From positions 1 through 35,280 of the IMG/VR virus record IMGVR_UViG_3300027771_000043: a DNA stretch of 35,280 nt; one strand, 5' to 3'. The notes beneath the pieces were generated by a model, which was not told the origin of the DNA, did no database searches, and saw only the letters and a program-made list of their open reading frames with translations. A program made the position numbers and the translations under genes. Each line of letters begins with the position of its first letter. Position 1 is the first letter of the stretch. This DNA comes from a virus. Positions 11,092-30,704 of this stretch are shown here, piece after piece.

Positions 11092-11471
11092 AGTTTGAAG
11101 TAAATGAAAAAGTATTTGCATTCACTATGCTGTTGTATGGACAACAGCTATTCATTCAATTGTTTAATGAAGAAGAGAATCAAGAATGGAAATTAATACA
11201 ACCTATACTAAAACAACTTTATGAAGGTCTAACAGAAGATCATAAAGAAAAAGGTTATCAGAGAGCACTAAACTATAGTGGCTCTAAACCTCCTGTACTC
11301 TCTAGCTTTTCAGATGTATGGTATATTCTTTATTGTATCTCTAACTATAGAATCTTTTGGATAGATTTAGATTCAGATAAAAAAGAGTTAGAGATACTAA
11401 AGTATGCTTTGAATAATGTTGCTAAGAAATCTCATAGAACATTTAGTGAATATAAATCAAGGCATATATGA
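11088..11471 (+). CDS. Protein of unknown function, last gene of the accessory island
   Basis: The 127-residue protein is not one I recognise. It is acidic in the middle and probably helical (FIQLFNEEENQEWKLIQPIL, KQLYEGLTEDHKEKGYQR), with a hydrophobic segment VWYILYCISNYRIFWIDL (77-94) that is too mixed to call a membrane span. It overlaps the methyltransferase-like gene by 4 bases, and its 3' end overlaps the convergent oxygenase gene by 15 bases, leaving no room for an intergenic terminator. Confidence 0.65.
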   Translation: MKFEVNEKVFAFTMLLYGQQLFIQLFNEEENQEWKLIQPILKQLYEGLTEDHKEKGYQRALNYSGSKPPVLSSFSDVWYILYCISNYRIFWIDLDSDKKELEILKYALNNVAKKSHRTFSEYKSRHI

Positions 11472-13873: not shown

Positions 13874-16800
13874 TTATGCTGTTCTAACCCACAAACTCAC
13901 TGTTGTCACTGCTTCAGTTTCATTGTTGATGTTAGTACCAACGTATGTTTTATTATAATCTTTGCTGTATGTTTTGCTCCATACCTTATTATATAGCTTG
14001 GTCCAATTCTTAGTATAAACCTTCACATATGATCCACCATATTCTTTAGTGTAATCTTTTGAGAAGTCTCCGCTAAAGGTTCTTGTGTAAACTTTTTGCC
14101 ATACTTTAGAATAAGATGTCTCCCATAGTCTAGTATAATTCTTATTGTATTGTCCCACATAAACCTTGTTGTAGTCAACACTATAATTTTCTGTTCCTGT
14201 ATATTGTTTAGTATATACCTTTTCAAAATTACCTTCATACAACTTAACATAGTTTCTATCAAAAGTACCTTCGTAATTTGTATTATAATCTTTTGTATAT
14301 ATTTTAGTATAGTCTTTACTATAATCTTTATCATATATTTTTGTATATAGTTTGGTCCATATTTTTGTATATGTAGCTGAGAAATCTTTACCATAAGATC
14401 TATCACCAAGATATGTTCTAGTATATGCTTTAGTATACTCTGCTTCGTATTCTTTTTGATACGTTTTAGTATATGTTACAGCACTTGTATATGCACCTAC
14501 CCAAGCCTTAGTCCATGTACCTGACCATATTTTTGTAAACTGACCTGTGAATGCAACTAGTGACCAATTAGTACCTTCGTAGTTTACATCAGATGCCCAT
14601 TGCTTCACATAATTTACTGCACCTACATATGAACCAGTCCATACTTTTGTATAGTCACCTTGATAGATTTTTGTATAATCTTTTGTATATGTTTTAGTAT
14701 AAAGTCTAACATATTCTTTAGTCCATGTTACTTGATACTCTTTATTATAATCTACAGTATAAGTTTTTGTCCAGTTATGTGTGTAATCTTTTTCCCATAC
14801 TTTAGTATACTCTTTTGTAAATTGTTGTTGCCATAATCCTTCATAGTGTGCTACATAATGCTTTAACCAAAGTTTGTCATAATTTTTTATGTAGTCAGTA
14901 TCAAAGGTACCAGTATATGTATCTAAGTAATCTTTCTCCCAAATCTTAGTATAGAAAGTTTCCCATTCTCTTGACCAATCTGTATGCCAATCTCTGTCAT
15001 AGTTCTTTTCCCATAGAGTTGAATATACTGTAGTATAAGTTTTAACATAGTCTTTATTATAATTAGTTTCCCATTCATGAGTCCAATTTGCATGCCAGAT
15101 CTTAGTATAATCTTTTTCCCATATCTTCTGATAAGTTGTTGTATAATCTTTTTCATATTGACCTAACCATTGTTTAGCATATACAGCATCATAATCTTTT
15201 TCCCAAATCTTTGTATAAGTCTTCACATAATTTTTTATATAATCTTTATTGTAATCAGTTGTATATGTTTTAACCCAGATCTTAGTATAGATAGCATCAT
15301 AATCTTTTTCCCATATCTTAGTATACGTTTTAACATAATCTTTAACATAATCTTTTGACCAAATTTTTGTATATGTTTTCACGTAATTTTTTAGATAGTC
15401 AGTTGTATATGTTTTAGTCCAGATCTTAGTATAGTTAGCATCAAATGAGCCTTCGTATACATCTACAAAATCTTTATTATATAATTTCTGATAATTTTTT
15501 TCCCATATTTTAGTATACTCACCAGTGTATGTTTTAACATAATCTTTATTGTAGATTGTTGTATAGGTTTTTACATAATTTTTAAGATAGTCTTTATTAT
15601 AATCTTTAACCCAGATCTTAGTATACTCTCCTACCCATACCTTAGACCAAATCTTTGTATAGTCTTTGTTCCATACCTTAGTATAAATTTTTGTATAAGT
15701 TTTAACATAATCTTTAGACCAAGTAGCATGATAATCTTTATTCCAGATCTTAGTATATACTTTATCCCATACCTTAGTATAAATTTTTGTATAGTTAGTC
15801 TCATCAGAACCTGATGCATAGCCACCATAGTAAGTTGGACCTACCCATATCTTTGTATATTCTTTATCCCATGCTTTTGTATAGGTTGTAGTATAGGTTT
15901 TAGTCCATGATTGTTGATAGGCTTTGACGTAATTTTTTAGATAGTCAGTACTATAATCCTTAGCCCAGACCTTAGTATAGTTTGCATCAAATGCTCCTTC
16001 ATATGTTTTAACATAATTCTTAGACCAAATTTTTGTATATACTTTATCATAATCTTTTACGTAATCTTTATTGTACTCTCCTACATAAGAACCAACCCAT
16101 ACCTTAGCATATATTTTTGTATAGTTAGTCTCATCAGAACCTGATGCATAACCACCATAGTATGTTGGCCCAACCCAGATCTTAGTATAGTTAGCATCAA
16201 AGGATCCATCAAAAGAACCTTCATATGCTTTTACATAATTTTTAGACCAGATCTTAGTATAAATTTTAGTATAGTCTTTTACATAATCTTTATCATATGT
16301 TCCTACCCATACTTTTGCATAAATTTTAGTATAGTCTTTGGTCCAGATCTTTGTATAAGTCTTAACATAGTCTTTATGCCAATGTTGTTCCCATATTTTA
16401 GTATATGTCTTTTCCCATATTTTAGTATAGTCTGTTGTATAAGTCTTAACATATACTTTAGTATAGTCAGCATCAAATGAACCTTCGTATACAGCATCAT
16501 AATCTTTACTATATGTCTTTACGTAATTTTTAACATAATCTTTATTCCAGATCTTAGTATAGGCTTTAACAAAAGCAGTATCAAACGTACCCTCATAAGT
16601 TGTGGTATATGTTTTTACATAATCTTTAACATAACCTTTGACCCAACCTTTAGTATACTCACCTAGCCATACCTTAGCATATATTTTAGTATAGTCTTTA
16701 TTCCAAATTTTAGTATAAGTTTTAACATAGTCTTTATTATAGTCGGTTGTATAATCTTTGACATAGTTTTTTAAATAATTTTTTAGATAGTCAGTTGTAT

Positions 16801-19800
16801 ATGTTTTAGTCCAGATCTTAGTATAGGTTGTAGTATAATCTTTTTCCCAAATCTTTGTATAAGTCTTCACATAATTTTTTACATAATCTTTATCGTAATT
16901 TGTTGTGTAGGTCTTAACCCATATTTTAGTATAGTCAGCATCAAAGGCACCTTCATATGCTTTAGTCCATATTTTTGTATATAAAGTTGTATAGGTTTTT
17001 ACATATACTGCAGTCCATGAATCTTGATATGCAGCTTCATAATCTTTAAGATAATTTTTAGACCATAACTTTGTATAGATTTTTACATAATCTTTTTCCC
17101 AGATCTTTGTATACTCTCCTGCCCATACCTTATTATAAATTTTAGTATAGTCAGCACCATAACCTTTTACATAATTTTTATTCCATATCTTAGTATAGTC
17201 AGCGCCATAGTCTTTTACATAATTTTTAAGATAGTCAGTAGTATATGTCTTAGTCCATATCTTTGTATAGTCTGTTGTATAAGTCTTAACATATATTTTA
17301 GTATAGTCTGCATCAAAGGATCCCTCATATACATCAACATAATCTTTTGTATATAATTTTTCCCATAGCTTAGTATATTCACCCACCCATACTTTGGACC
17401 AAATTTTTGTGTAATCTTTTTCCCATATCTTAGTATACGTTTTAACATAATCTTTATTATAATCTTTATTCCATATCTTTGTATACTCACCAACAAAAGC
17501 ACCTACATAAATCTTAGTATAATCTTTAGTCCATATTTTAGTATAAGCCTTAACGTAATCTTTTAGATAGTCTTTATTCCATACCTTGGTATACTCTCCT
17601 ACCCATACTTTAGCATAATCTTTATTATAATCTTTAGCCCATATTTTTGTATACTCTCCTACCCATACTTTAGAATATACTTTATCATATGCTTTGGTCC
17701 AAACTTTAGCCCAAACTTTAGTATATTCTCCTACCCATACTTTGGCATAAATTTTAGTATAGTTAGTTTCATCTGATCCAGATGCATAACCACCATAGTA
17801 AGTAGGACCTACCCATATCTTAGTATAGTTAGCATCAAATGATCCCTCATATATTTTAGTATAGTCTTTACCATAGTCCTTGGCCCATATCTTTGTATAG
17901 TCAGCATCAAAGCTACCTTCGTATACTTTGTCATAAGCCTTTGTATATGTTTTAGTATACGTAGCATCAAATGATCCTTCGTATATTTTAGTATATGTCT
18001 TTACATAATTTTTAATCCAATTTTTAGTATAGATGGCATCATAGTCTTTACTCCATATTTTTGTAAAGCTGCCATCAAAAGAACCTTCGTATACTTTATC
18101 ATAAGCCTTAGTATAAGTTTTAACATAGTTCTTATTATAATCTGTAGTATAAGTCTTAACATATATTTTAGTATAGTCTGCATCAAAGGATCCCTCATAT
18201 ACTTTATCGTAAGCCTTAACATATCCTTTAACCCAACCTTTAGTATATTCTCCTAACCAAACTTTAGACCAAATTTTAGTATAATCTTTTTCCCAAATCT
18301 TAGTATAGATTTTAGTATAATCTTTTTCCCATATCTTTGTATAGGTCTTAACATAATCTTTAGCCCACAACTTACTATAGATTGCAGTATATGTTTTAAC
18401 GTAATCTTTGGACCAAATTTTAGACCATATTTTTGTATACGCAGCATCAAATGAACCTTCATATATTTTTGTATATGTCTTAGTCCATATTTTAGTATAG
18501 TCAGCTGAATAATCTTCTACATAATCTTTAGTCCATAACCTATGCCATTCTTTAGCATACTCAGCTTCCCATACTTTTACATAGGTCTTAACATAATTCT
18601 TTTCCCATATCTTAGTATAGTCACCTTCATAATGTTTTAAGTATCTGGCAGTGAATGATTGATGGTAGGCTTTCTCATATGTTGTTTCATAATCTTTAGC
18701 CCATATCTTATCATAATTTTTTACATAGTTCTTTACATAATCCTTAGACCAAATTTTAGTATATGTTTTAAGATAGTCCGTACTATAATCAGCATCATAC
18801 CCTTTAACATAATTTTTTAAATAGTCAGTAGTATATGTCTTAGTCCATATCTTAGTATAGTCTGCATCAAATGAACCTTCATACACATCTACGTAATCTT
18901 TAGTGTATAGCTTTAGATAATTTTTAAGGTAATCTTTATCCCAAAGTTTAGTCCATATCTTAGTATAGGTCTTAACATAATTTTTTACATAGTCTTTATT
19001 CCAGATCTTAGTATAAACACCTACATAATTCTTAGTCCAGATCTTAGTATAGGTTGCATCATAATCTTTTACGTAATTCTTTTCCCAGATCTTTGTATAG
19101 TTAGCATCAAAAGATCCTTCGTATACATCAACATAATCTTTTGTATATAATTTTTCCCATAGCTTTGTATACTCACCAACAAAGGCACCTACATAAATCT
19201 TAGTATAATCTTTAGTCCAGAGTTTTGTATAAACTTTATCATAGTCTTTGTTATAATCTTTTTCCCAAAGTTTAGTATACTCTCCAACCCATACCTTTGC
19301 ATATACTTTATCATATGCCTTAGTCCAAACTTTAGTATACTCTCCAACAAAAGATCCTACGTATACTTTAGTCCATACCTTAGTATAAATTTTAGTGTAG
19401 TTAGTTTCATCTGAACCAGATGCATAACCACCATAGTAAGTAGGACCTACCCATATTTTTGTATATATTTTGTCCCATACTTTTGTAAAGTTACCATCAA
19501 ATGATCCTTCATATATTTTAGTATAATCTTTATTCCAGACCTTTGTATAGTTAGCATCAAATGATCCTTCATATACTTTGTCATAGGCTTTAGTATATGT
19601 CTTAACCCATATCTTAGTATAGTCAGCAGCATAATCCTTTTGCCAAACTTTTGTAAAGCTGCCATCAAATGATCCTTCGTATACTTTATCATAGGCCTTG
19701 ACGTATCCTTTGACCCAACCTTTAGTATACTCACCTAGCCATACCTTAGCATATATTTTAGTATATGTTTTAACATAATCCTTAGACCAAATCTTAGTAT

Positions 19801-22000
19801 AGATTTTAGTATAGTCTGTTGTGAATGTACCTTCATATGTTGTAGTGTATGTTTTAACATAATTTTTTAGATAGTCTTTATTGTAGTCAGTACTGTAATC
19901 AGCTGACCAAACTTTAGTATAAGTTTTTACATAGTCCTTTGTATAACCTTTAACCCATCCTTTTGTATATTCCCCAAGCCATACTTTTGAATATACTTTA
20001 GTATAATCTTTCTCCCAGATCTTAGTATAGGCTTTGACATAATCTTTATCCCATATCTTAGTCCAGATCTTTGTATAGGCTTTAACATAATCAGCATCAT
20101 AACCTTTAACATAGTTTTTAAGATAGTCTTTATTATATCTGCCTACATAATTCTTTGTCCATATCTTAGTATAGAGCTTGTGCCATTCTTTGGCATACAA
20201 TGCCTCCCAGTCTTTTTGATACTGTGTAGTATATGTCTTAACCCAATTCTTAGTATAGTTACCTGTATATGTTTTAGTAAAGTTTTTAGTATATGTGGCT
20301 GCATACACTTCAGTCCAATCACCAGCAAATGCACCACCAGCAAAATGTCCTTCATATATTTTTGTATAGACTGTGGTAAATCCACCAGTATAACTTGCTT
20401 CATAATCTTTATTGTAATCAACAGAATAAGATTTACTATAATTACCAATATAATCTTTTGACCATATTTTATGATATGGTGTAGTATAATCTACTGAATA
20501 ATTTTTAACCCAATTCTTAATATAGCTAACTTCAAATGTACCTTCAAAAGAAGTCTCTTGTACATAGACTTTTTCAAAATTAGTAAGACCAGCATATACT
20601 CCTGTGTAAATTTGTGCTCCTGTATAGACACCAGTATATAATTTAGTGTACTCGTCTGTATATGTTCTTACAGAGGTTCCTTCAAAAGATGTGTCTCCAA
20701 CATAGGCCTTCTCATATATTTTTAACCAGTCGTGTGTATAAATTTTTTCCCAATTACGATCAAAGCCTTCTTCTCCTACAAATAACTTAGCCCATATTTT
20801 AGTATAGTCTTTATTATAATCTACTGAATAAGATTTAGTATAATTTTTAGTATAGGTATTAACATAAACAGCTGTATAATTTTTAGACCAAACTTTTGTA
20901 TATGTACCAGTATAGGTTTTAACATATATTCTTTCATAGTTACCTAGATATAATTTTGTATAATTTTTACTATAGGCTACTTCTGCAGACCATATTTTAG
21001 TCCACGTTTTTGCATAGTCTCCCTCATACAATTTTGTATACGAGGCTTCCCAAACTTTCCTATAATTAGCGCTATAGTCCTTCGTAAACGCTCCTTCAAA
21101 GGAGTTACCATATGCTTTGGTGTAGGTCTTCGAGTACTCCCCACCATAGGCTTTTTCATAGGTTGTTGTATAGTCTTTACTATAGTCAGCGGAGTAATCT
21201 TTATTGTAATCTTTAATGTAGGCTTTAACGTAATTGCCCTCGTTAGAGAAAGTATTTCTTGCATCTATAAAGGCTGTACCTTGTCTTACCCAAGTACCTG
21301 ATGCAGGAGCATTTTGTTGCAGTGCATACTTACCTATACCAGTAGATACTAATTGGTTTCTAAATCTACTAATTAAATAAGATATCTCTGTATCACTAAA
21401 CTCTTGGGATTGACCAGCTACGTCAGTAAGTTTTAAAGGACGAACAGTTGTAGGCGCAGTAGGACCAGTAGTCCTTCTCCATATCTGTGTAGTGTTACCT
21501 GATGCGGAACCATTAGATGCCACTGAATTTGTTAATGTAAGTATGGATGTATATTGACTATTTGGTTGTGAAGGTGTCATAACATATGAACCTAAACCAT
21601 TAGCTACTAAATTAGATAAGGCTCTGTTTATTAAAGAGGCATTTAAATTTGTATCAGATTGTTGTACCATTGGTTGAGCAGTATTGTTATACTCAATTGG
21701 TCTAACCATAAGTGACTCATCACTATTAGCAGTTTGAATTTGATATAAAGATGTTGTGCTGACTGTGGTTATTGAACCACCGGGAGTTGTTTGACCTACT
21801 GCTTCCGCTCTTTTAGTATCTACAAAAGAACCAATGCTGGTAGTTCCTGAACTACTTGTACTAAGTATACCGGGACCACTGTTAGATACAAATGAACTAA
21901 GTATCTGGTGGACAGAATAATCCATATCTTCATTGGACATAACTTGAAGACTTGTATATTCACCACTTCCATTGGTTTGTATTTTTAACGGATTTGCCAT
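13874..22000 (-). CDS. Giant repetitive fibre protein A (2708 residues, proximal candidate)
   Basis: Residues 1 to about 255 are a non-repeat domain (MANPLKIQTNGSGEYTSLQV, DMDYSVHQILSSFVSNSG) of the kind that heads structural proteins of cyanophage-like T4 relatives, with a TQIWRRTTG segment and an internally similar helix pair (NRALSNLVANGLGSYVM; SRFRNQLVSTGIGKYAL). From there to about residue 2690 the protein is aromatic-x-Lys-x repeats (YTKIWTKDY, YVKTYTKIW) mixed with YEGSFDA units and four Gly/Tyr cassettes. A short unique tail ends TVSLWVRTA. In one 100-residue sample I counted 6 Trp and about 16 Tyr. No signal peptide. AGGAAAGAGG precedes the ATG and TATAAATA is at 22028-22021. Likely an elongated virion appendage; function inferred. 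Confidence 0.8.
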   Translation of the reverse strand: MANPLKIQTNGSGEYTSLQVMSNEDMDYSVHQILSSFVSNSGPGILSTSSSGTTSIGSFVDTKRAEAVGQTTPGGSITTVSTTSLYQIQTANSDESLMVRPIEYNNTAQPMVQQSDTNLNASLINRALSNLVANGLGSYVMTPSQPNSQYTSILTLTNSVASNGSASGNTTQIWRRTTGPTAPTTVRPLKLTDVAGQSQEFSDTEISYLISRFRNQLVSTGIGKYALQQNAPASGTWVRQGTAFIDARNTFSNEGNYVKAYIKDYNKDYSADYSKDYTTTYEKAYGGEYSKTYTKAYGNSFEGAFTKDYSANYRKVWEASYTKLYEGDYAKTWTKIWSAEVAYSKNYTKLYLGNYERIYVKTYTGTYTKVWSKNYTAVYVNTYTKNYTKSYSVDYNKDYTKIWAKLFVGEEGFDRNWEKIYTHDWLKIYEKAYVGDTSFEGTSVRTYTDEYTKLYTGVYTGAQIYTGVYAGLTNFEKVYVQETSFEGTFEVSYIKNWVKNYSVDYTTPYHKIWSKDYIGNYSKSYSVDYNKDYEASYTGGFTTVYTKIYEGHFAGGAFAGDWTEVYAATYTKNFTKTYTGNYTKNWVKTYTTQYQKDWEALYAKEWHKLYTKIWTKNYVGRYNKDYLKNYVKGYDADYVKAYTKIWTKIWDKDYVKAYTKIWEKDYTKVYSKVWLGEYTKGWVKGYTKDYVKTYTKVWSADYSTDYNKDYLKNYVKTYTTTYEGTFTTDYTKIYTKIWSKDYVKTYTKIYAKVWLGEYTKGWVKGYVKAYDKVYEGSFDGSFTKVWQKDYAADYTKIWVKTYTKAYDKVYEGSFDANYTKVWNKDYTKIYEGSFDGNFTKVWDKIYTKIWVGPTYYGGYASGSDETNYTKIYTKVWTKVYVGSFVGEYTKVWTKAYDKVYAKVWVGEYTKLWEKDYNKDYDKVYTKLWTKDYTKIYVGAFVGEYTKLWEKLYTKDYVDVYEGSFDANYTKIWEKNYVKDYDATYTKIWTKNYVGVYTKIWNKDYVKNYVKTYTKIWTKLWDKDYLKNYLKLYTKDYVDVYEGSFDADYTKIWTKTYTTDYLKNYVKGYDADYSTDYLKTYTKIWSKDYVKNYVKNYDKIWAKDYETTYEKAYHQSFTARYLKHYEGDYTKIWEKNYVKTYVKVWEAEYAKEWHRLWTKDYVEDYSADYTKIWTKTYTKIYEGSFDAAYTKIWSKIWSKDYVKTYTAIYSKLWAKDYVKTYTKIWEKDYTKIYTKIWEKDYTKIWSKVWLGEYTKGWVKGYVKAYDKVYEGSFDADYTKIYVKTYTTDYNKNYVKTYTKAYDKVYEGSFDGSFTKIWSKDYDAIYTKNWIKNYVKTYTKIYEGSFDATYTKTYTKAYDKVYEGSFDADYTKIWAKDYGKDYTKIYEGSFDANYTKIWVGPTYYGGYASGSDETNYTKIYAKVWVGEYTKVWAKVWTKAYDKVYSKVWVGEYTKIWAKDYNKDYAKVWVGEYTKVWNKDYLKDYVKAYTKIWTKDYTKIYVGAFVGEYTKIWNKDYNKDYVKTYTKIWEKDYTKIWSKVWVGEYTKLWEKLYTKDYVDVYEGSFDADYTKIYVKTYTTDYTKIWTKTYTTDYLKNYVKDYGADYTKIWNKNYVKGYGADYTKIYNKVWAGEYTKIWEKDYVKIYTKLWSKNYLKDYEAAYQDSWTAVYVKTYTTLYTKIWTKAYEGAFDADYTKIWVKTYTTNYDKDYVKNYVKTYTKIWEKDYTTTYTKIWTKTYTTDYLKNYLKNYVKDYTTDYNKDYVKTYTKIWNKDYTKIYAKVWLGEYTKGWVKGYVKDYVKTYTTTYEGTFDTAFVKAYTKIWNKDYVKNYVKTYSKDYDAVYEGSFDADYTKVYVKTYTTDYTKIWEKTYTKIWEQHWHKDYVKTYTKIWTKDYTKIYAKVWVGTYDKDYVKDYTKIYTKIWSKNYVKAYEGSFDGSFDANYTKIWVGPTYYGGYASGSDETNYTKIYAKVWVGSYVGEYNKDYVKDYDKVYTKIWSKNYVKTYEGAFDANYTKVWAKDYSTDYLKNYVKAYQQSWTKTYTTTYTKAWDKEYTKIWVGPTYYGGYASGSDETNYTKIYTKVWDKVYTKIWNKDYHATWSKDYVKTYTKIYTKVWNKDYTKIWSKVWVGEYTKIWVKDYNKDYLKNYVKTYTTIYNKDYVKTYTGEYTKIWEKNYQKLYNKDFVDVYEGSFDANYTKIWTKTYTTDYLKNYVKTYTKIWSKDYVKDYVKTYTKIWEKDYDAIYTKIWVKTYTTDYNKDYIKNYVKTYTKIWEKDYDAVYAKQWLGQYEKDYTTTYQKIWEKDYTKIWHANWTHEWETNYNKDYVKTYTTVYSTLWEKNYDRDWHTDWSREWETFYTKIWEKDYLDTYTGTFDTDYIKNYDKLWLKHYVAHYEGLWQQQFTKEYTKVWEKDYTHNWTKTYTVDYNKEYQVTWTKEYVRLYTKTYTKDYTKIYQGDYTKVWTGSYVGAVNYVKQWASDVNYEGTNWSLVAFTGQFTKIWSGTWTKAWVGAYTSAVTYTKTYQKEYEAEYTKAYTRTYLGDRSYGKDFSATYTKIWTKLYTKIYDKDYSKDYTKIYTKDYNTNYEGTFDRNYVKLYEGNFEKVYTKQYTGTENYSVDYNKVYVGQYNKNYTRLWETSYSKVWQKVYTRTFSGDFSKDYTKEYGGSYVKVYTKNWTKLYNKVWSKTYSKDYNKTYVGTNINNETEAVTTVSLWVRTA
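15794..15844 (-). repeat. Gly/Tyr hinge cassette, fibre A copy 4
   Basis: Encodes VGPTYYGGYASGSDETN, the last copy along protein A. It is followed by YTKIYTKVWDKVY and preceded by WDKEYTKIW, the same flanks as the third copy of fibre B (24424-24474). Confidence 0.9.
16124..16174 (-). repeat. Gly/Tyr hinge cassette, fibre A copy 3
   Basis: VGPTYYGGYASGSDETN preceded by EGSFDGSFDANYTKIW and followed by YTKIYAKVWVGSYVG. It lies inside the segment that is collinear with fibre B; its partner is 24754-24804. Confidence 0.9.
17762..17812 (-). repeat. Gly/Tyr hinge cassette, fibre A copy 2
   Basis: The same 17 residues, here after YTKIYEGSFDANYTKIW and before YTKIYAKVWVGEYTKVW. It belongs to the second of two long higher-order repeats in protein A. 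Confidence 0.9.
19400..19450 (-). repeat. Gly/Tyr hinge cassette, fibre A copy 1
   Basis: First copy along protein A, preceded by FTKVWDKIYTKIW and followed by YTKIYTKVWTKVYVGSF. It heads the first of the long higher-order repeats. Confidence 0.9.
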
Positions 22001-22020
22001 AGGCGCGCCTCTTTCCTATG
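22001..22020 (-). promoter_or_regulatory. Ribosome-binding leader with GC palindrome before fibre A
   Basis: Directly upstream of the ATG the minus strand reads CATAGGAAAGAGGCGCGCCT. AGGAAAGAGG gives a purine-rich ribosome site, and the last ten bases, AGGCGCGCCT, are a perfect palindrome that is very GC-rich compared with the surrounding sequence. Confidence 0.6.
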
Positions 22021-22028
22021 TATTTATA
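22021..22028 (-). promoter_or_regulatory. T4-type late promoter for fibre A and downstream genes
   Basis: TATAAATA on the minus strand, 20 bases upstream of the fibre A ATG and overlapping the stop codon of fibre B (TAA, 22026-22024). The leader would be very short. It can drive fibre A, the coiled-coil protein, the glycosyltransferase and the oxygenase gene, which have at most 15 bases between them. Confidence 0.75.
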
Positions 22029-25000
22029 GTAACTTAAATGTTTCATCTCCAGCGATTAATCCTCGCCCTGAGCCTCCAGGTCCTACAAACAATACTCTTG
22101 ACGCGTCATATCCTTGTATAGCAGATCCTGGTGTACCACCATCTCCACTCATAGCCCATTTAGTTCTTGTAGATGCTCCTGTTACTATAGTGTCCATATT
22201 TGCTCCATAACCTATTGCTCCAAGGTCACCACCTTTACCGCCTGGTACTCTTGAATTGTGTGTTGTTATTATATTTGGTACTGCTCCTGCACCACCTTTT
22301 ATTATAGAACCAGCAACAGAGGCTGTTAATACTGCACTTGCAGTTGTTCCTGCTGCTCCACCTAATGAACCAGAACCACCACCGCCACCTGAACCTGATT
22401 GTGCAGCAAACTCAGTTGACTTAGCACCAGTAGCAGGATTAGTTAACATGGTAAGACCACCTGCACCACCACCGCCACCACCACCGCCAATGGTACCATA
22501 ATTTTCTATAAACAATGTAACAGCTGCGTCTGTCTTAATAGCTGTACCACCATTTGCTCCATCAGCACCTGCAGTATCTGTAGCTGCATTACCGCCTGCT
22601 CCACCACAACCAGTTATGTAACCATTATGATGAACTAAAATTCTTACTAAGTGAGGGAAGTTTTGAGCACTGCCACCATCAACTTGGTTAACTGATATAG
22701 CAGAGAACCCTGTTAAATCTATAGCTGGTTTAGCTGTAGTATTAGAACCTATAGAATAATATGTATCTTGATCATCTGGATTACCCACATGGATAGTAGT
22801 CATTGTTGGATTAGATCCACTAGCTCTACCTTTATGATCTAAAAATTCTTTCAAATTAAAGTTGTTAACAAACAGAGAAGATTTGCTTCCATTATGTCCT
22901 GCAATTGTTGCTGAACCTTTAGATGAGAATTCTCCTAATGTATCTGGTGTACCTGTTGTATCGTTTTCACCTCTCATATAGAATGCATCTGCTGTATTAG
23001 CAAGAGGACCTGCAGTAGTATTATTTAAATAAACGTCTGTATGTTTGTGTCCTATGTGTGATAATTTCCAATTAGATCCATCTTTAGTATGTTGATACGG
23101 TACTTCTTTCCACTCACCCTCTTCTCTTACCCATAACTTTTTAGCTTGTTCCCATATATCTTCTTTCTTCAAGAACAATCTAGGTTTAGTATTTGATAGT
23201 GCACCACTATGTACTCCTACAAAATTTGTATTACCAACAAATGTATTATGTGATGTTCTTGTACCACTCCATTGAGTTTCAAAATATTGATCTCCAGTAT
23301 AAGTTGGATTCCAAGCACGAAGATAATTTTCATTACCTAACCATATTTTAGTATAGTCTGTACTGTAATCATCTAATCCATCAAATGAACCTCTATAGTT
23401 TACAATACCATCTCCAAAATATAAACCATCAGCTTGATAAGATCTTGCAGATGTATATACAACTGTAGTTATTAAGTTTATAAATCCAACATCTGCAGTA
23501 AAGTTTCTTACACCTTCGTATCCACCAATATATTCTTTTACGTATGTACCTTGATATGTTGTAGTGTAAGTCTTAACATAATTTTTAAGATAATCTTTAG
23601 ACCAAATTTTAGTATAAACCTTATCCCACGCTTTGGAATAATCTTTTGAATATGCTTTTTCCCAAATCTTAGTATATATTTTTTGGTATATTGTTGTGTC
23701 AGCACCTGATGCAAAGCCACCATAGTAGGTTGGACCAACCCAATCTTTTTGATAATTAGCATCATATGATTTTTCATAATCTTTTGTATATATTTTATTC
23801 CATGCTTTTGTATAATCAGCACTATATTCTTTGGCATAGGCCTTAACATAATCTTTATTCCATACCTTTGTATATACTGCACCATCATATGCTTTTTCAT
23901 AAGCAGTACCAGCGTACACACCGTCATAAGATAATTGACCAGCGTATGTAGCAGTCCATGCCTTAGGTGATGTATATGTTACTGTACCAGAGAAGTATGC
24001 TATCCATACAGTCCATATTCTTTCATATGCTTTTACATAATTCTTAGACCATACCTTAGTATAAGTTGTAGTGTAATCTTTATTGTATATTCTGCCATAT
24101 GCTTTAGTATAGATTTTAGTATAGTCTGTACTATAATCTTTATTATATGTTTTTGTATAAGTTTTAACATAATTTTTTTCATAGCTGGCATCAAAAGATC
24201 CCTCATATACATCTACATAATCTTTTGTATATAATTTTTCCCAAAGTTTAGTATACTCACCAACCCAAACTTTTGCATAGTCTTTATTATAAGTTTTATC
24301 ATAGGCTTTAGTATAAATTTTAGTCCAAATTTTAGTATATTCTGCTGTCCAATCAGCATGATAATCTTTAGACCAAGTTTTTGTATATACAGCGGTCCAT
24401 ACTTTAGTATATATTTTTGTATAGTTAGTCTCATCAGAGCCTGAAGCGTATCCACCATAGTATGTTGGACCTACCCAAATTTTAGTATATTCTTTATCCC
24501 AAAGTTTTGTATAAGTTGTTTCCCAAAGTTTAGTAAACGATTGTTGGTATGCTGCTATGTAAGTTTTATTGTAATCAGTTGTATATGTTTTAACCCAAGC
24601 CTTAGTATAGTTTGCATCAAATGCTCCTTCATATGCTTTAACATAATTCTTTTCCCAGATCTTAGTATAGATTGCATCATAATCTTTTACGTAATCTTTA
24701 TTGTACACTCCTACATAAGAACCAACCCACACCTTAGCATAAATTTTAGTATAGTTAGTTTCATCTGATCCAGATGCATAGCCACCATAGTAAGTAGGAC
24801 CTACCCATATCTTAGTATAGTTAGCATCAAACGATCCATCAAAGGAACCTTCATATGCTTTAACATAATTTTTAGACCAGATCTTAGTATAAATTTTAGT
24901 GTATGTTTTTACATAATCTTTATTGTAAACGCCTACCCATACTTTAGCATATACTTTTTCATAAGCTTTTTCCCATACCTTAGTATATGTTTTTACCCAA

Positions 25001-28000
25001 TTTTTAAACCAATGTTGAGACCAATCTTTTGCATATATCTTAGTATAGTCTTTACTATAATCTTTTTCCCATATCTTAGTATATGTTTTAACATACGTTG
25101 CATCAAATGATCCTTCGTATATTTTATCATATCCCTTAACATATCCTTTGACCCAGCCTTTAGTATATTCACCAACCCAAGCCTTAGCGTAGGCTTTTAC
25201 ATAATCTTTATCGTAGCCTTTGTCATATGCTTTAGTCCAAATCTTAGTCCATATTTTAGTATAGTCTTTTTCCCAAAGTTTTGTATAGGCTTTAGTCCAA
25301 ATTTTAGTATAGATGGCATCATAGCCTTTTACATAATCTTTTTCATATAACTTAGCATACCCAGCAACACCATAGTTACCTATGCCTGTATATGTTTGTG
25401 CATAATTTACATCACCTACCCAAGGATGTATACCTGTAAAGGATCTGTTACCAACATACGTTGCTGTATAGGCTTTTGTAAAATTGATATCTCCTGTGTA
25501 AGTAATTGCTACACGATAGGCTTTTACATAATCTTCAAGACCAACATAAACTTTTGTATAGTTTGCTGTGTAACTTATAGCACCAGTATAAGTAGCTCTA
25601 CCTTCATAAACTTTTGTAAAGTCAACCGAACCATCCCAGATTCTACTAAACTCAGTACTTGTCCATGCTTTAGTATATACTTTAGTATAATCAGCACTAT
25701 AATCTTTTGTATAACTTTTAGTATAAACACCAGACCATATTGTTGTATAGTCTGCTTGGTAATCTTTAGTATAAGTTTTTACATAGTTGTCACCTAAGCC
25801 ATCTACATAATCTTTATTATAATCTTTGGACCATAATTTAGTATATACAGTAGTGTAATCTCCTGTGTAATCTTTATCATAATTTTTGGCATAAGCCTTA
25901 GTCCAAATTTTAGTATAGTCTTTGCTATAAGGAGTTGCTGTTAAACCTTCCCACACTTTATTATATTCTACTACACCTAAATAATGTTTAGTCCAAGCTC
26001 CAGTACCAACATACACACCAATATAATCTTTACTATAACTTTGTACACCAGTATAGTATATTAAACCTACATAATTTTTATTATAGTTTAATAATCCTAC
26101 ATAGACTTTGTTATAATCTGTGCCACCAGTATTGGTATATGTTTTTGTGTAGGAAGCATTACCTTCATAGGCTTTCGTATAAGGTTTTGTTGTTCCAAGA
26201 TAGTTAGTATCAAATGCTTCTGCACCAGTAAAGTTAGCTTCTGTTTGATAAACTTTTGTATATGTTCCTTCATAAGGTACTGTACCTGTGTAATCTTTTG
26301 CGTAACCTAATTCAGGACCAGCATAAACACCTTGCCATACTTTAGTATATACTTTTTCATAAGAGTTCCAAGCCTTAATATACTCAGCTGTATAGTCTCC
26401 AGTAAAGTTAATATCTCCAGCATAGGTTGTTGCATAGTCTGTAAGACCTTGATATATTTTAACAAAGTTAACTGACCCAACATAAATTTTAGTATAATTT
26501 TGTACATCTTTTACATATGCATGTGACCACTCTGTGCTGTAAACAGCTGTGTATTCTGTAGTGTATCCTTTAATATAAACTGTGGAGTAATCTTTATCAT
26601 AATTTTTTGCATAAGCCTTAGTCCAAATTTTAGTATAGTCAGCACCATACGCTTTAGCATAAGCTTTTTCATATGTACCAGTCCACGCACCCTCATATAT
26701 TTTGTCATAAGCTTTTGTATATGTTTTATCATATACTTTAGTATAATCTTTAACATAATTTTTATACCACGTTTTAAGATAATCTACACTATAATCTTTG
26801 TTCCAAATTTTAGTATATTGTGCTGTCCAACCACCAACATATAATATAGTATAGTCTCTAGCATAATTAGCACCACCGTATACTTTTGTATATACTTTTG
26901 TAAATGCTCCTTGCCATACTTTTGTATATACAGCAGTATAGGATTTAGTCCAAACTTTTGTATATAATTTATTATATTCTTTTACATAATCTTTTGACCA
27001 AACTTTGGTATATGATTTAACATAATCTTTTTCCCATATTTTTGTATAGTCTTTAGCATATGCTGTACCATCATAAGCCTTAGTATAATCTTTAGTCCAG
27101 AGTTTTGTATAAATTTTTGTATAATCTTTATTGTAATCTTTAGTATAAGATTTAGTCCAAATTTTTGTATAATCTTTTGACCATACTTTAGTCCATATTT
27201 TTGTATAGTCTGCACCAAAGTTAAGAATAGTACCTGACATAAAATTAACAATTGCATTATAATCCACAGACCATATTTTAGTATAGTTTGCATTACCTTC
27301 ATATGCTTTGTTATAATTAATAAATGTTGCTACGTAATCTACTGAATAATCTTTATCATAATTTTTTGTATATATTTTAGTGTAGTCTATACTATATGCT
27401 TTTGTATATGTTTTAACATAATCAGTTTCATATGCTTTAGTCCATATCTTAGTCCAAATTTTTGTAAAGTTTTTAGCATAAGAAGGTGACCATGCGCCAA
27501 CATATATTTTTGTATATGCTTTACTATAATCTTTTTCATAGTTTGCTGTGAAAGATCCTTCATAATTTACTGCGTAATCTTTAGTCCAGATCTTAGTATA
27601 TGCTTTTGTATAATCTTTTGAATATATTTTAGTCCATTCACTTGTGTAATCTTTTTCCCATATTTTAGAATAAACTTTATCCCAATTCTTAGACCAAATT
27701 TTTGTGTATACTTTAGCATAATCTTTACTATAATCTTTTGCAAAGTCCCCAACATATATCTTAGTGTAATCTTTAGTATAGGTTTTAACGTAAACTTTTT
27801 CATATGTAACAGTAAACACATCACCGTTACCATCAGCATATGCTTTTGTATATCCTTTTGTATAATCTTTGTTGTAATCTTTTGACCATATTTTAGTATA
27901 GTCTGCACCAGTATAAACTTTAGTCCATATCTTAGTATAGACTTTTGTATAATCTACAGTGTAATCTGTAGCCCATATTTTAGTATAGTCCGCTGTGTAT

Positions 28001-29730
28001 GTTTTAGTATAGACACCTGTCCATACTTTAGTATAATCTTTTGCATATATTTTTTCATAATCAGTAGAATAATCTTTAGACCAGATCTTTGTATAGTCAC
28101 CTAACCAGGCTTTAGCATAATTTTTAACATAACCTTTAGACCATACCTTTGTATAGTCAGATGCATAAGCAGTTGAACTTTCATACTCTTTAGTATAAGT
28201 TGCTGTGTACTCTGTGCTGTAATCTTTTTCCCATATCTTAGTATATGTTTTATTATAATCTTCAGCATATAACTTAGTCCATATTTTTGTGTAATCTTTC
28301 TCATAAGATTTAGTCCATATTTTAGTATATGTTCCTTCACCAGAAAAATCTATGGCTCTTGTATATATTTTAGTATAGGTATCTCCAGTAAAGAAGCCTT
28401 CACTAACGTATGCTACTGCACCTAAGAATGTTACAGCACCAGCATAAACTTTATTATAATCTACTAGACCTATACCATAATCACCACCAGCACCTGAGAA
28501 TGCACCACTAGTCCATGGTTGAATAAATGTTTGATAACTTTTAACATAAGTCTTAACATAAATTTTTGTATAGTCAGCATCATAATCTTTAACATAATTT
28601 TTTAGATACGTAGCATCAAAGCCACCTTCGTATATTTTATCATAACTCTTAACGTAATTTTTTTCCCACAACTTAGTATAGTCTTTACTATATGCTTTAA
28701 CATAATTTTTATCATAAGTTGTTGTGTAATCTTTTACGTAATCTTTTTCCCATACTTTTGTATAGGTAGTAGTATAAGTCTTAACATAATTTCTTAGGAA
28801 GTTTTGATCAAAAGAACCTTCATATATTTTATCATAAGCCTTAGTCCATATTTTAGTATATTCTTTATCATAAGCTCTATCATAATTTTTTGTATATACA
28901 CCAACAAAAGCTCCTACATAAACTTTAACATAGATTTTAGTATAGCCTGTTGTATCAGATCCAGATGCAAACCCACCATAGTAAGTTGGGCCTACCCAAA
29001 TTTTAGTCCAGTCTTTACTAAAGCTTCCATCAAAAGAACCTTCATAATCTTTGTCATAATTTTTAACCCATACCTTAGTATAGATTTTAGTATAATCTTT
29101 TTCCCATATCTTAGTATACTCACCTACAAAAGAACCAGTATAATCTTTTATATAATCTTTTTGCCAAATTTTAGTATACTCAGTACTGTATGTTTTAACA
29201 TAGTTCTTAGACCAAATTTTTGTATAAGTCTTAACATAATCTTTTTCCCAAAGTTTTGTATATACTTTGTCATAGCCTTTAACATAATCTTTATTCCAGA
29301 TCTTAGTATACTCACCTAACCAAACTTTAGCATAAGCCTTAACATAATCTTTAGACCAAATTTTAGTCCATATCTTGGTATAGTCTTTATTATATTCTTT
29401 TTCGTATATTGTTTCAAATTGAGCTAGGTACTCAGCCACATCAGTAAATCCAGTATTACCTACCCAATGTTTTGTAAAATTAGCTGTAGTAGGACCGGAC
29501 CATACTTTAGTATAAATTTTTACATATGGTACTTCAGAAGTATACGCTTTAGTAAATGAGTGATCGATAACAGAAGTGTCTTTAAGATAATTGCCTGTGT
29601 AGCCACCAAAGGTACCTTCGTATGCTCTACTAAAAGATACTTGTGGGGTATGCGCAGTGGCGCTCAAGTAGGACCTGGTAAAGGTACTAAAAGCTCCTAA
29701 AAATGATCTTGCATACTGTCTAGTGGCCAT
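22024..29730 (-). CDS. Giant repetitive fibre protein B (2568 residues) with glycine-rich tip
   Basis: The repeats begin almost at the start (MATRQYARSFLGAFSTFTRS), so there is no separate head domain. Residues to about 2160 are mainly aromatic-x-Lys-x repeats with four Gly/Tyr cassettes, plus blocks of a longer Gly-type repeat. Residues about 2181-2568 are a different, non-repeat tip: FLKKEDIWEQAKKLWVREEG, HTKDGSNWKLSHIGHKH, then a domain with VRILVHHNGYITGCGGAGG, an eight-glycine run near residue 2411, and GGGGGSGSLGG before a PGGSGRGLIAGDETFKLL end. Such Gly-rich domains occur at receptor-binding tips of phage fibres. The start has only a weak site (GGGA, 12 bases away). A distal fibre half that joins protein A is plausible. 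Confidence 0.8.
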   Translation of the reverse strand: MATRQYARSFLGAFSTFTRSYLSATAHTPQVSFSRAYEGTFGGYTGNYLKDTSVIDHSFTKAYTSEVPYVKIYTKVWSGPTTANFTKHWVGNTGFTDVAEYLAQFETIYEKEYNKDYTKIWTKIWSKDYVKAYAKVWLGEYTKIWNKDYVKGYDKVYTKLWEKDYVKTYTKIWSKNYVKTYSTEYTKIWQKDYIKDYTGSFVGEYTKIWEKDYTKIYTKVWVKNYDKDYEGSFDGSFSKDWTKIWVGPTYYGGFASGSDTTGYTKIYVKVYVGAFVGVYTKNYDRAYDKEYTKIWTKAYDKIYEGSFDQNFLRNYVKTYTTTYTKVWEKDYVKDYTTTYDKNYVKAYSKDYTKLWEKNYVKSYDKIYEGGFDATYLKNYVKDYDADYTKIYVKTYVKSYQTFIQPWTSGAFSGAGGDYGIGLVDYNKVYAGAVTFLGAVAYVSEGFFTGDTYTKIYTRAIDFSGEGTYTKIWTKSYEKDYTKIWTKLYAEDYNKTYTKIWEKDYSTEYTATYTKEYESSTAYASDYTKVWSKGYVKNYAKAWLGDYTKIWSKDYSTDYEKIYAKDYTKVWTGVYTKTYTADYTKIWATDYTVDYTKVYTKIWTKVYTGADYTKIWSKDYNKDYTKGYTKAYADGNGDVFTVTYEKVYVKTYTKDYTKIYVGDFAKDYSKDYAKVYTKIWSKNWDKVYSKIWEKDYTSEWTKIYSKDYTKAYTKIWTKDYAVNYEGSFTANYEKDYSKAYTKIYVGAWSPSYAKNFTKIWTKIWTKAYETDYVKTYTKAYSIDYTKIYTKNYDKDYSVDYVATFINYNKAYEGNANYTKIWSVDYNAIVNFMSGTILNFGADYTKIWTKVWSKDYTKIWTKSYTKDYNKDYTKIYTKLWTKDYTKAYDGTAYAKDYTKIWEKDYVKSYTKVWSKDYVKEYNKLYTKVWTKSYTAVYTKVWQGAFTKVYTKVYGGANYARDYTILYVGGWTAQYTKIWNKDYSVDYLKTWYKNYVKDYTKVYDKTYTKAYDKIYEGAWTGTYEKAYAKAYGADYTKIWTKAYAKNYDKDYSTVYIKGYTTEYTAVYSTEWSHAYVKDVQNYTKIYVGSVNFVKIYQGLTDYATTYAGDINFTGDYTAEYIKAWNSYEKVYTKVWQGVYAGPELGYAKDYTGTVPYEGTYTKVYQTEANFTGAEAFDTNYLGTTKPYTKAYEGNASYTKTYTNTGGTDYNKVYVGLLNYNKNYVGLIYYTGVQSYSKDYIGVYVGTGAWTKHYLGVVEYNKVWEGLTATPYSKDYTKIWTKAYAKNYDKDYTGDYTTVYTKLWSKDYNKDYVDGLGDNYVKTYTKDYQADYTTIWSGVYTKSYTKDYSADYTKVYTKAWTSTEFSRIWDGSVDFTKVYEGRATYTGAISYTANYTKVYVGLEDYVKAYRVAITYTGDINFTKAYTATYVGNRSFTGIHPWVGDVNYAQTYTGIGNYGVAGYAKLYEKDYVKGYDAIYTKIWTKAYTKLWEKDYTKIWTKIWTKAYDKGYDKDYVKAYAKAWVGEYTKGWVKGYVKGYDKIYEGSFDATYVKTYTKIWEKDYSKDYTKIYAKDWSQHWFKNWVKTYTKVWEKAYEKVYAKVWVGVYNKDYVKTYTKIYTKIWSKNYVKAYEGSFDGSFDANYTKIWVGPTYYGGYASGSDETNYTKIYAKVWVGSYVGVYNKDYVKDYDAIYTKIWEKNYVKAYEGAFDANYTKAWVKTYTTDYNKTYIAAYQQSFTKLWETTYTKLWDKEYTKIWVGPTYYGGYASGSDETNYTKIYTKVWTAVYTKTWSKDYHADWTAEYTKIWTKIYTKAYDKTYNKDYAKVWVGEYTKLWEKLYTKDYVDVYEGSFDASYEKNYVKTYTKTYNKDYSTDYTKIYTKAYGRIYNKDYTTTYTKVWSKNYVKAYERIWTVWIAYFSGTVTYTSPKAWTATYAGQLSYDGVYAGTAYEKAYDGAVYTKVWNKDYVKAYAKEYSADYTKAWNKIYTKDYEKSYDANYQKDWVGPTYYGGFASGADTTIYQKIYTKIWEKAYSKDYSKAWDKVYTKIWSKDYLKNYVKTYTTTYQGTYVKEYIGGYEGVRNFTADVGFINLITTVVYTSARSYQADGLYFGDGIVNYRGSFDGLDDYSTDYTKIWLGNENYLRAWNPTYTGDQYFETQWSGTRTSHNTFVGNTNFVGVHSGALSNTKPRLFLKKEDIWEQAKKLWVREEGEWKEVPYQHTKDGSNWKLSHIGHKHTDVYLNNTTAGPLANTADAFYMRGENDTTGTPDTLGEFSSKGSATIAGHNGSKSSLFVNNFNLKEFLDHKGRASGSNPTMTTIHVGNPDDQDTYYSIGSNTTAKPAIDLTGFSAISVNQVDGGSAQNFPHLVRILVHHNGYITGCGGAGGNAATDTAGADGANGGTAIKTDAAVTLFIENYGTIGGGGGGGGAGGLTMLTNPATGAKSTEFAAQSGSGGGGGSGSLGGAAGTTASAVLTASVAGSIIKGGAGAVPNIITTHNSRVPGGKGGDLGAIGYGANMDTIVTGASTRTKWAMSGDGGTPGSAIQGYDASRVLFVGPGGSGRGLIAGDETFKLL
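22027..23190 (-). other. Glycine-rich adhesin-like C-terminal domain of fibre B
   Basis: About 388 codons with no aromatic repeat. A linker (EWKEVPYQHTKDGSNWKLSH) leads to a beta-rich region (LVRILVHHNGYITG; AVTLFIENYGTIGG) separated by Gly-rich runs. The pattern of Gly-rich loops between FIENYGTIGG-like strands is known from phage tail-fibre tips and from polyglycine-helix adhesins such as phage S16 gp38. Receptor recognition is the expected role. Confidence 0.65.
23689..23739 (-). repeat. Gly/Tyr hinge cassette, fibre B copy 4 (divergent)
   Basis: VGPTYYGGFASGADTTI, with Phe, Ala and Thr replacing Tyr, Ser and Glu. Preceded by YDANYQKDW and followed by YQKIYTKIW. Confidence 0.88.
24424..24474 (-). 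repeat. Gly/Tyr hinge cassette, fibre B copy 3
   Basis: VGPTYYGGYASGSDETN, preceded by LWDKEYTKIW and followed by YTKIYTKVWTAVYTKTW; partner of the 15794-15844 copy. Confidence 0.9.
24754..24804 (-). repeat. Gly/Tyr hinge cassette, fibre B copy 2
   Basis: VGPTYYGGYASGSDETN, preceded by EGSFDGSFDANYTKIW and followed by YTKIYAKVWVGSYVGVY; partner of the 16124-16174 copy, with synonymous differences. Confidence 0.9.
28945..28995 (-). repeat. Gly/Tyr hinge cassette, fibre B copy 1 (divergent)
   Basis: VGPTYYGGFASGSDTTG, preceded by FSKDWTKIW and followed by YTKIYVKVYVGAFVG. With the 23689-23739 copy it forms a Phe/Thr-containing subtype that is found only in fibre B. Confidence 0.88.
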
Positions 29731-29746
29731 TGTCTAATTTATCCCA

Positions 29747-30043
29747 CTAACTATATGTTTGGTAGTGTATGTCCCCGTCAGCTCCACCGGATGGTGCACC
29801 TGTACTGATAGTAACAGAATATGCTGCATCTTGTGAACCATCAAAAGTTCTTTTTGTGAATTGTGTGGTAAGATCATTGTTAGCTGATACAGTAGCCAAA
29901 CCTTTGGTATCTACAGTAAGTGTAACACCATTAGCACCAGAACCATAAGTTCCTGTTACTCCTGATATTGTTGGTAGAACTGCTGATTGTATGTTTGCTG
30001 TACTGTTAACAATCTGTACATTATTTACCTTGAGTGCGCCCAT
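29747..30043 (-). CDS. Short fibre-like protein
   Basis: The 98-residue protein begins MGALKVNNVQIVNSTANIQS and contains a beta-rich GVTGTYGSGANGVTLTVDTK GLATV segment and an end, TGAPSGGADGDIHYQTY, that resembles the terminal strands of many phage fibre proteins (PSGGxDGDIWY). It overlaps the S74-domain gene by 23 bases and lies 16 bases before fibre B. It may be a small fibre subunit or connector. No catalytic motif is visible. Confidence 0.6.
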   Translation of the reverse strand: MGALKVNNVQIVNSTANIQSAVLPTISGVTGTYGSGANGVTLTVDTKGLATVSANNDLTTQFTKRTFDGSQDAAYSVTISTGAPSGGADGDIHYQTYS

Positions 30044-30704
30044 CTACTATCTCCCTTAAATCGTCGACTTCTTGTTTTAAATTTTTGACTGCATCTATAA
30101 GCAAAGGAATTAGAGATTGATATTTAACAGATAGCTTTCCGTCATCTCTTTCATTTACTAGATAAGGAAGTACCTGTTGCACTTCTTGAGCAATAACACC
30201 AATATCAGTTTGACCGTCTCTATGATCGTTTGCATCCCATTCAAATAAATAACCATTTATTTGTTGAATTATTTCCCATGTATCAGGAATAGTTCTTACA
30301 TTAATTTTTAAAGTTTGATCAGATGTATAACTGGCTTCAACGTCACCAAAAGCTCTTAGGTTATTTGCATATACATTACCCCATGCTTTTGTTGTTGTAC
30401 CCAAATCTAATGTTAGGTTGGCACTAGGATGTGTTGCTGAACCAATAATTAAATTAGCTGAGGCTGATGTAGTACCACCTCTTAATTGTGTGTTAGCTAC
30501 TAGATAGTTACTTGAGAAGTATCCATTAACATGACCATTACCTGTTGTTTCTGCATGATTAGTTCCACTTGGTTGAGCTACAGCTGCAGTAGTTATAACA
30601 ACAGTACTCAAATCATATGTAATACGGTTTGTTAAATCTACCCACTCAGTAAACGTATCAGTTGTTGGTGCTACGTTTGCTCCTGTATATGTTGTTTTAG
30701 CCAT
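30021..30704 (-). CDS. Peptidase S74 (intramolecular chaperone) fibre protein
   Basis: The C-terminal half of this 227-residue protein is an endosialidase-type chaperone domain. It starts SYTSDQTLKINVRTI with the Ser128-Asp129 pair and Lys133 of the self-cleavage site, continues IIQQINGYLFEWDAND, then TDIGVIAQEVQQVLPYLVNE (167-186) and VKYQSLIPLLIDAVKNLKQE, and ends in a coiled coil. Such domains trimerise fibre proteins and then cut themselves off. The N-terminal 127 residues are Thr/Asn/Ser-rich beta sequence ending LGTTTKAWGNVYANNLRA, a normal lead-in to S74. It overlaps the coiled-coil gene upstream by 8 bases. Confidence 0.85.
   Translation of the reverse strand: MAKTTYTGANVAPTTDTFTEWVDLTNRITYDLSTVVITTAAVAQPSGTNHAETTGNGHVNGYFSSNYLVANTQLRGGTTSASANLIIGSATHPSANLTLDLGTTTKAWGNVYANNLRAFGDVEASYTSDQTLKINVRTIPDTWEIIQQINGYLFEWDANDHRDGQTDIGVIAQEVQQVLPYLVNERDDGKLSVKYQSLIPLLIDAVKNLKQEVDDLREIVDGRTQGK

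Follow-up and report, generated by a model that had tools for sequence, protein, structure and literature searches.

Sequence signs of antiparallel self-pairing in the aromatic-x-Lys-x arrays of two giant putative appendage proteins of a T4-like marine phage

Two giant array genes at a tail locus

The DNA analyzed here (the window, 35,280 bases) is the whole of its IMG/VR virus record. Two adjoining genes on the minus strand, P0001 and P0002, encode giant proteins dominated by a tetrapeptide array (Table 1). In P0001, the array of 2430 aa is preceded by a 256-aa N-terminal domain and followed by a 22-aa C-terminal strand; in P0002 it spans about residues 101–2170, and an adhesin region of about 390 aa lies outside it. 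An earlier sequence-only reading of this DNA had described an aromatic residue at every fourth position with Lys two residues later, and this was borne out. The aromatic autocorrelation at lag 4 reached 0.925 for P0001 and 0.778 for P0002 (aromatic fractions 0.23 and 0.21), 566 and 407 successive aromatics were spaced exactly four apart, and the longest unbroken aromatic runs comprised 133 and 42 units, compared to 8 and 7 in 200 shuffles. The +2 position was occupied by Lys in 67–69% and by Gly in 10–13% of cases, the remainder being mostly Ala or Thr, and the two arrays carry net charges of +97 and +67. Where the spacing departs from four, the gap is often six, so that the aromatics stay on one face of the strand. 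The strict beta-type alternation agrees with the same reading's placement of aromatic and Lys/Gly residues on one face. The period of the array is four, without a strong longer period; a solenoid with fixed units per turn was rejected, as no more than a weak three-unit (12-residue) tendency appeared in some arrays.

Table 1. Features of the array locus; stems, arms and loops are predictions, and residue numbers refer to the protein named
Feature	Window position	Strand	Basis or content
P0001 (gene B)	13874..22000	minus	2708 aa; N-terminal domain, array, C-terminal strand
P0001 1–256, three tandem units of ~85 aa (u1, u2, u3)	21233..22000	minus	hhalign, family alignment, homologue model
P0001 257–2686, aromatic-x-Lys/Gly-x array inserted in u3	13943..21232	minus	spacing, unit comparison
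P0001 2687–2708, conserved C-terminal strand (..TTVSLWVRTA) completing u3	13877..13942	minus	unit match, homologue model
P0001 closing stem, N arm, 257–485 (may extend to ~550)	20546..21232	minus	mirror spacing, Gly-Gly
P0001 closing stem, C arm, 2458–2686	13943..14629	minus	mirror spacing, Gly-Gly
P0001 hairpin I, arm 1, 669–850	19451..19996	minus	stem score, Gly-Gly
P0001 hairpin I, apical loop VGPTYYGGYASGSDETN, 851–867	19400..19450	minus	motif axis
P0001 hairpin I, arm 2, 868–1049	18854..19399	minus	stem score, Gly-Gly
P0001 hairpin II, arm 1, 1052–1396	17813..18847	minus	stem score, Gly-Gly
P0001 hairpin II, apical loop, 1397–1413	17762..17812	minus	motif axis
P0001 hairpin II, arm 2, 1414–1758	16727..17761	minus	stem score, Gly-Gly
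P0001 stem III, arm 1, 1760–1894	16319..16723	minus	score 77.1
P0001 stem III, arm 2, 2070–2204	15389..15793	minus	stem score, Gly-Gly
P0001 hairpin IIIa, 1896–1942/loop 1943–1959/1960–2006, nested in stem III	15983..16315	minus	score 33.1
P0002 (gene A)	22024..29730	minus	2568 aa; array, then gp38-like adhesin
P0002 2361–2540, phage tail-fibre adhesin Gp38-like glycine-rich domain	22111..22650	minus	PF05268, PHROG 2056
P0002 hairpin, 113–245/loop 246–262/263–395	28546..29394	minus	score 42.1 vs shuffle maximum 11.0
P0002 stem, 522–604:665–747	27490..28167	minus	score 18.6
P0002 stem, 1462–1574:1790–1902, with nested motif-loop hairpin 1578–1642:1660–1724	24025..25347	minus	scores 34.2 and 30.9
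Short fibre/baseplate-type protein, peptidase S74 (endosialidase chaperone) domain	30021..30704	minus	upstream of P0002; profile matches

The two genes belong to a minus-strand series that runs from a DUF4815/PHROG 358 structural protein through the S74-domain short fibre to P0002 and P0001, with matches to a head-tail adaptor, head closure, tail sheath stabilizer, the small and large terminase subunits and the tail sheath further downstream. By these profile matches, the locus is a T4-like baseplate/neck operon. The nearest relatives of the terminase are those of Methylophilales phage Melnitz, cyanophages and marine single-cell viruses, at about 56–58% identity. The locus recurs in an independent IMG/VR contig, L173, which differs from it at 3 of 10,915 bases; it is thus not an assembly artefact. 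Given the baseplate/fibre and neck/terminase neighbours and a gene order conserved in relatives, P0001 and P0002 would be virion proteins, and the fibre context proposed from the letters alone gains support from the neighbouring tail genes and an adhesin match. A block of small genes on the opposite strand (window 7991–11471, plus strand) is likewise kept next to the array genes of relatives, in an orientation that varies among contigs, and one of its genes weakly matches a glycosyltransferase PHROG (E 5e-4). In one relative (L162, G004), the block beside gene B holds what appears by eye to be a PstS-type phosphate-binding protein (~27173–28159, joined coordinates). A protein with a CNMTCxNCY motif, by eye a radical-SAM enzyme, is encoded near the array genes of the same contig (31533–32459) and of L163 (G009; 4882–5808).

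No family in Pfam, PHROGs, NCBIfam or PDB covers the array, and these libraries offered nothing useful for the N-terminal domain either. Among the Pfam repeat families none reached its cutoff on the array, the only hit being Hexapep (15.5 bits vs cutoff 27), in keeping with the claim that the repeat is neither heptad, pentapeptide nor collagen. Foldseek, run with the model of the N-terminal domain on PDB and BFVD, gave no match at E 0.001 or better, and searches of open-access papers turned up no account of such an array. A tblastn match of the array to S-RIM2 was rejected, as Gly spacing alone matches. The S-RIM2 structural protein AGH07198 exemplifies the GNVTGN-type Gly repeats of cyanophage fibres, which share the tetrapeptide spacing with Gly, but carry Val/Leu in place of the aromatic and form a short stretch.

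The array within folded domains

The N-terminal domain of P0001 consists of three related units (hhalign u2–u3 E 1.9e-9, u1–u3 2e-7, u1–u2 3.4e-5). The first closes with the strand TTSLYQ and the second with TTQIWRRT, while u3 stays open until TTVSLWVRTA at the C-terminus of the protein. Because u3 is interrupted and completed only by this C-terminal strand, both ends of the P0001 array lie in one domain. Natural short homologues of 330–430 aa show the identical plan. In the AlphaFold model of a short gene-B homologue, the three-unit domain reached a pLDDT of ~70–95 and the C-terminal strand ~90, while the array between them remained at about 25–50.

Searching with a profile built on the N-terminal domain of gene B revealed 51 related loci. 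The two-gene order recurs in relatives between the same neighbours, with gene A comprising array and adhesin and gene B the three-unit domain, array and C-terminal strand. In complete gene-B homologues the array varies from 5 to 635 aromatic steps around a constant scaffold and C-terminal strand (..LWVRTA or ..YTLYVRVA); three-unit domain, array and C-terminal strand thus constitute a family with conserved scaffold and variable array. The +2 residue across these relatives is mostly Gly, Lys, Arg or mixed. A scan of IMG/VR proteins with P0002 patterns, which were too specific, gave no match. The back-translated DNA pattern of Y.K.W.K (Tyr/Trp-x-Lys-x) located contigs with giant Lys-type genes, its other matches being mostly simple repeats, and P0002 matched 9 of the 9 records examined among the contigs from this search. 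In 50,697 phage records, a gene-B relative was found in Phage C48C1 only (OQ984149, Kyanoviridae). Its 3347-aa hypothetical protein WJE88074 has the three-unit N-domain and C-terminal strand of P0001 and, placed likewise between baseplate/fibre genes, an array with an aromatic at every fourth residue; it differs in being a single gene and in carrying Gly and Arg, not Lys, at +2. Gly-type arrays were found in C48C1 and in many IMG/VR contigs, in support of the sequence-only reading's statement that cyanophage-type phages carry relatives of the Gly type.

The C-terminus of P0002 matches the family of T-even Gp38 adhesins (PF05268 with 36.6 bits vs cutoff 25, E 5.5e-9; PHROG 2056, E 1.1e-10). With regard to the polyglycine-II helix fold of Gp38 adhesins, the matching region contains glycine-rich stretches, and a PDB sequence search at E 0.1 returned nothing. 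The gp38 of T-even phages is a stand-alone protein at the tip of a gp37-type fibre. In P0002, the module forms the C-terminal end of a protein of 2568 aa and is fused to an array of ~2000 aa, so that by its sequence P0002 contains a gp38-like module, but is not itself a gp38. The adhesin of the window is unsplit, whereas in gene A of four relatives (G004, G009, G001, G006) the adhesin matches it in two parts, the HMM breaking at 266/267, and the array, 819, 1060, 1060 and 1290 aa long, lies inside the split domain. Because the array splits this adhesin at one point, its ends adjoin at a second, unrelated site. Three of these gene-A arrays additionally contain a Laminin_G_3 lectin domain at residues 829–1038 (G004, L161/L162; E 5.3e-17), 779–987 (G009) and 770–991 (G001), in each case at the inner end, or apex, of the paired stem.

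The tail-gene context, the adhesin at the C-terminus of P0002 and the strict beta-type alternation would also fit a shaft that extends in one direction, either as a trimer or as a lone long strand carrying its aromatic residues and Lys on one face, in the manner of classical long tail fibres. Such a shaft is hard to reconcile with array ends that are adjacent at two unrelated insertion sites, with a gp38 module fused to the array, unlike the separate T-even gp38, and with the mirror spacing and exact-register pairing described below; we consider it very improbable. The strand running one way over hundreds of nanometres, as first envisaged, hence gives way to array ends that return to one domain and to antiparallel self-pairing.

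Mirror spacing and residue pairing

The irregular gaps of six residues mark positions along the array. Counted from the first array aromatic of P0001 (Y257), they occur at 80, 150, 176, 202, 212 and 222 residues; counted inwards from the last aromatic (Y2686), they occur at 80, 150, 176, 212 and 222, with a 5+5 pair at 202. The steps (70, 26, 26, 10, 10) are thus aperiodic and mirrored. The best mirror axis gave 5 exact pairs compared to a maximum of 2 in 1000 shuffles. The same distances were observed in L174 and L175, although their arrays measure ~1420 and ~2254 residues. In L191, whose domain is 31% identical and whose axis is fixed by its conserved ends, 9 pairs were found (shuffle maximum 4), including a matching irregular step of 30, and the mirror score of 142 exceeded the best direct repeat (67). 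The mirror agrees to within one unit in L192, L194 and L205 and partly in L183 and L188. Since some arrays are periodic, the mirror case rests on P0001 and L191; a token-palindrome search was not relied on, being inflated by periodic arrays. The mirror is broken in gene B of L186, where 89 aa are inserted solely on the N-side of the array; this insertion could be an extra side hairpin.

Mirror symmetry might also be a by-product of the duplication of array segments: about one third of the array 14-mers recur in direct orientation, and some arrays are strongly periodic. Yet copies arise in direct, not mirrored, order, and the end spacing of P0001 is aperiodic while mirrored. A search for DNA inverted repeats found none, so that the mirror symmetry is not a DNA palindrome. 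Together with the register control and arm-swap test given below, this leaves duplication without pairing a barely conceivable source of the symmetry.

If the two arms of a mirror pair face each other, residues at opposed +2 positions should match. With the arms aligned antiparallel, we counted +2 positions as both Gly/single/single/neither. The ends of the array gave 5/1/2/37 in P0001 (P = 1e-4) and 12/5/3/52 in L191 (P = 1.4e-7). An unbiased stem search in P0001 returned two best stems that enclose exactly the 17-aa motif VGPTYYGGYASGSDETN, and this result defined a prespecified test on the motif-loop axis. Across 44 motif rows from the window and its relatives, the counts were 75/23/24/707 with an odds ratio of 96 (the rows are related, and a P value would not be literal), while 30 other offsets of the same rows yielded odds ratios of 0.2 to 4.3. 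When right arms were swapped between hairpins, the own arms gave 62 Gly-Gly pairs against a mean of 11.8 and a maximum of 26 in 2000 swaps, and 22 mismatches against a minimum of 88; the signal was present separately in both divergent groups. Lys-Gly, acid-acid, V-V, V-I and Trp-Trp combinations were depleted at opposed positions. Comparison of P0001 with L175 at equal distance from the apex revealed 17 in-stem pairs that differ in Gly state, 15 of them on both sides and 2 on one side; five further one-sided Gly changes all lie beyond the stem of hairpin I. Taken as statistics of the sequence, these results show that the array pairs with itself in antiparallel register. In the Gly/Arg-type arrays, including that of C48C1, the only isolate, direct repeats outscore mirror pairing, and no clear hairpin signal emerged.

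Structure prediction added little, as AlphaFold, by its own confidence measures, cannot confidently model the array fold. A Gly-type array reached a pLDDT of 25–40. A Lys-type block with 21 rows gave a pLDDT of 35.5 and a pTM of 0.21; in this low-confidence model, long strands flank the loop motif on both sides. The sequence-only reading had held that predictions giving only disorder would speak against a structured repeat. In a technical sense this is what was obtained, with pLDDT values of 25–45 for the array, but the pairing covariation speaks against disorder. A disordered polymer, in which aromatics and Lys act as stickers of a flexible mussel-foot- or FG-repeat-like brush, would be compatible with the low confidence, the low-complexity composition and the net positive charge. 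Neither a strict four-residue phase over hundreds of units nor exact-register pairing with matched Gly changes is expected of such a brush, and we regard it as hardly plausible.

Proposed branched stem-loops and candidate host-binding arms

The pairing was used to derive a topology of stems and loops (Table 1). The stem scores were trained on motif hairpins and reward Gly-Gly pairs, and the unbiased tests remain those on the prespecified motif axis and on the array ends. Hairpin I of P0001 scored 82.0 (shuffle maximum 22.4) with Gly-Gly counts of 8/0/0/37, and hairpin II scored 103.4 with 9/0/0/77; stem III pooled with the nested hairpin IIIa gave 6/0/0/40. Hairpins I–III thus contain 23 Gly-Gly pairs and 0 mismatches, under a score that rewards such pairs. 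The closing stem of P0001 scored within the shuffle maximum, whereas those of L174 and L175 exceeded it. The P0001 arms measure 47–345 residues (47, 135, 182 and 345 in the internal hairpins), corresponding to ~15 to 115 nm if fully extended at 3.3 Å per residue. In P0002, significant stems cover the array only in part, the hairpin nearest to the N-terminus showing counts of 4/1/0/28. The array of L191 resembles a single giant hairpin with arms of ~1270 residues. Two motif copies, P0001 2053–2069 and P0002 1753–1769, are unsymmetric (0 Gly-Gly, 5 mismatches) and each follow another copy by 110 residues; they are perhaps junction corners rather than hairpin tips.

Covariation by itself cannot separate intrachain pairing from pairing between identical chains, and the Lys rows that face each other point to an additional layer of packing or to an anionic partner. 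The antiparallel pairing could accordingly join two chains by domain swap, or ribbons could stack into sheets or bundles. The return of the array bases to one folded domain and the short 17-aa loops favour an intrachain hairpin, and we judge these intermolecular variants unlikely.

We consider it quite probable, on the basis of sequence, that P0001 and P0002 form appendages on the virion of a T4-like phage from the sea and that their array pairs with itself in antiparallel register, giving branched stem-loops, comparable to those of RNA, as host-binding arms. The P0001 array would form a closing stem beside its anchoring domain and, inside it, further hairpins, several of them capped by the fixed 17-aa loop. 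The anchor would be the three-unit N-terminal domain, closed round the array base with the C-terminal strand. Each pair of arms may form a two-stranded beta-ribbon, one face of which would alternate aromatic pairs with Lys-Lys or Gly-Gly pairs, the other placing Thr/Val/Ile opposite Asp/Asn/Ser. As the mirrored pairs are aromatic-aromatic and Lys-Lys, the cation-pi ladders envisaged in the sequence-only reading would have to arise from contacts that run diagonally or lengthwise on a strand. Lys opposite Lys is unusual on electrostatic grounds and points to a partner or a mode of packing beyond the present data.

Designed hairpins with Lys at alternate positions, MAX1 among them, form stable ribbons that self-assemble (PMC12940918). 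MAX1 (VKVKVKVK-turn-KVKVKVKV) likewise combines an alternating hydrophobic/Lys strand, a turn and an antiparallel return. The likeness is one of principle only: MAX1 is a synthetic 20-mer, while the arrays of P0001 and P0002 are natural and branched, with arms of up to 345 residues and a four-residue aromatic code.

Cationic aromatic ribbons of this kind may extend from the tail and touch host-surface sugars and phosphates through contacts that are weak but multivalent. They would also present specific binders, namely the gp38-like adhesin in P0002 and, in relatives, a lectin at the ribbon tip. The arrays probably serve to tether the phage to the envelope of its host and to place binders at reach. 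On the evidence of the libraries and open-access papers that were searched, we lean towards regarding this as a natural architecture without described precedent, in which chains of thousands of residues form branched stem-loops by a four-residue code and serve as an expandable scaffold for host-binding arms of marine phages. The same reading would include the fixed 17-aa apical loops, lectin domains at stem tips and insertion in unrelated domains. We know of no long-range pairing in proteins this large that is readable from sequence through register and covariation, as in RNA.

The pairing yields a fold open to testing for a protein family that is beyond the reach of AlphaFold and absent by name from family libraries. 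Occurring in at least two unrelated domains and ranging from 5 to over 600 units, the arrays appear to be an extensible module from which appendages of a given length could be assembled. For T4-like phages of the sea, the pairing of the array supplies concrete candidates for host-binding arms.
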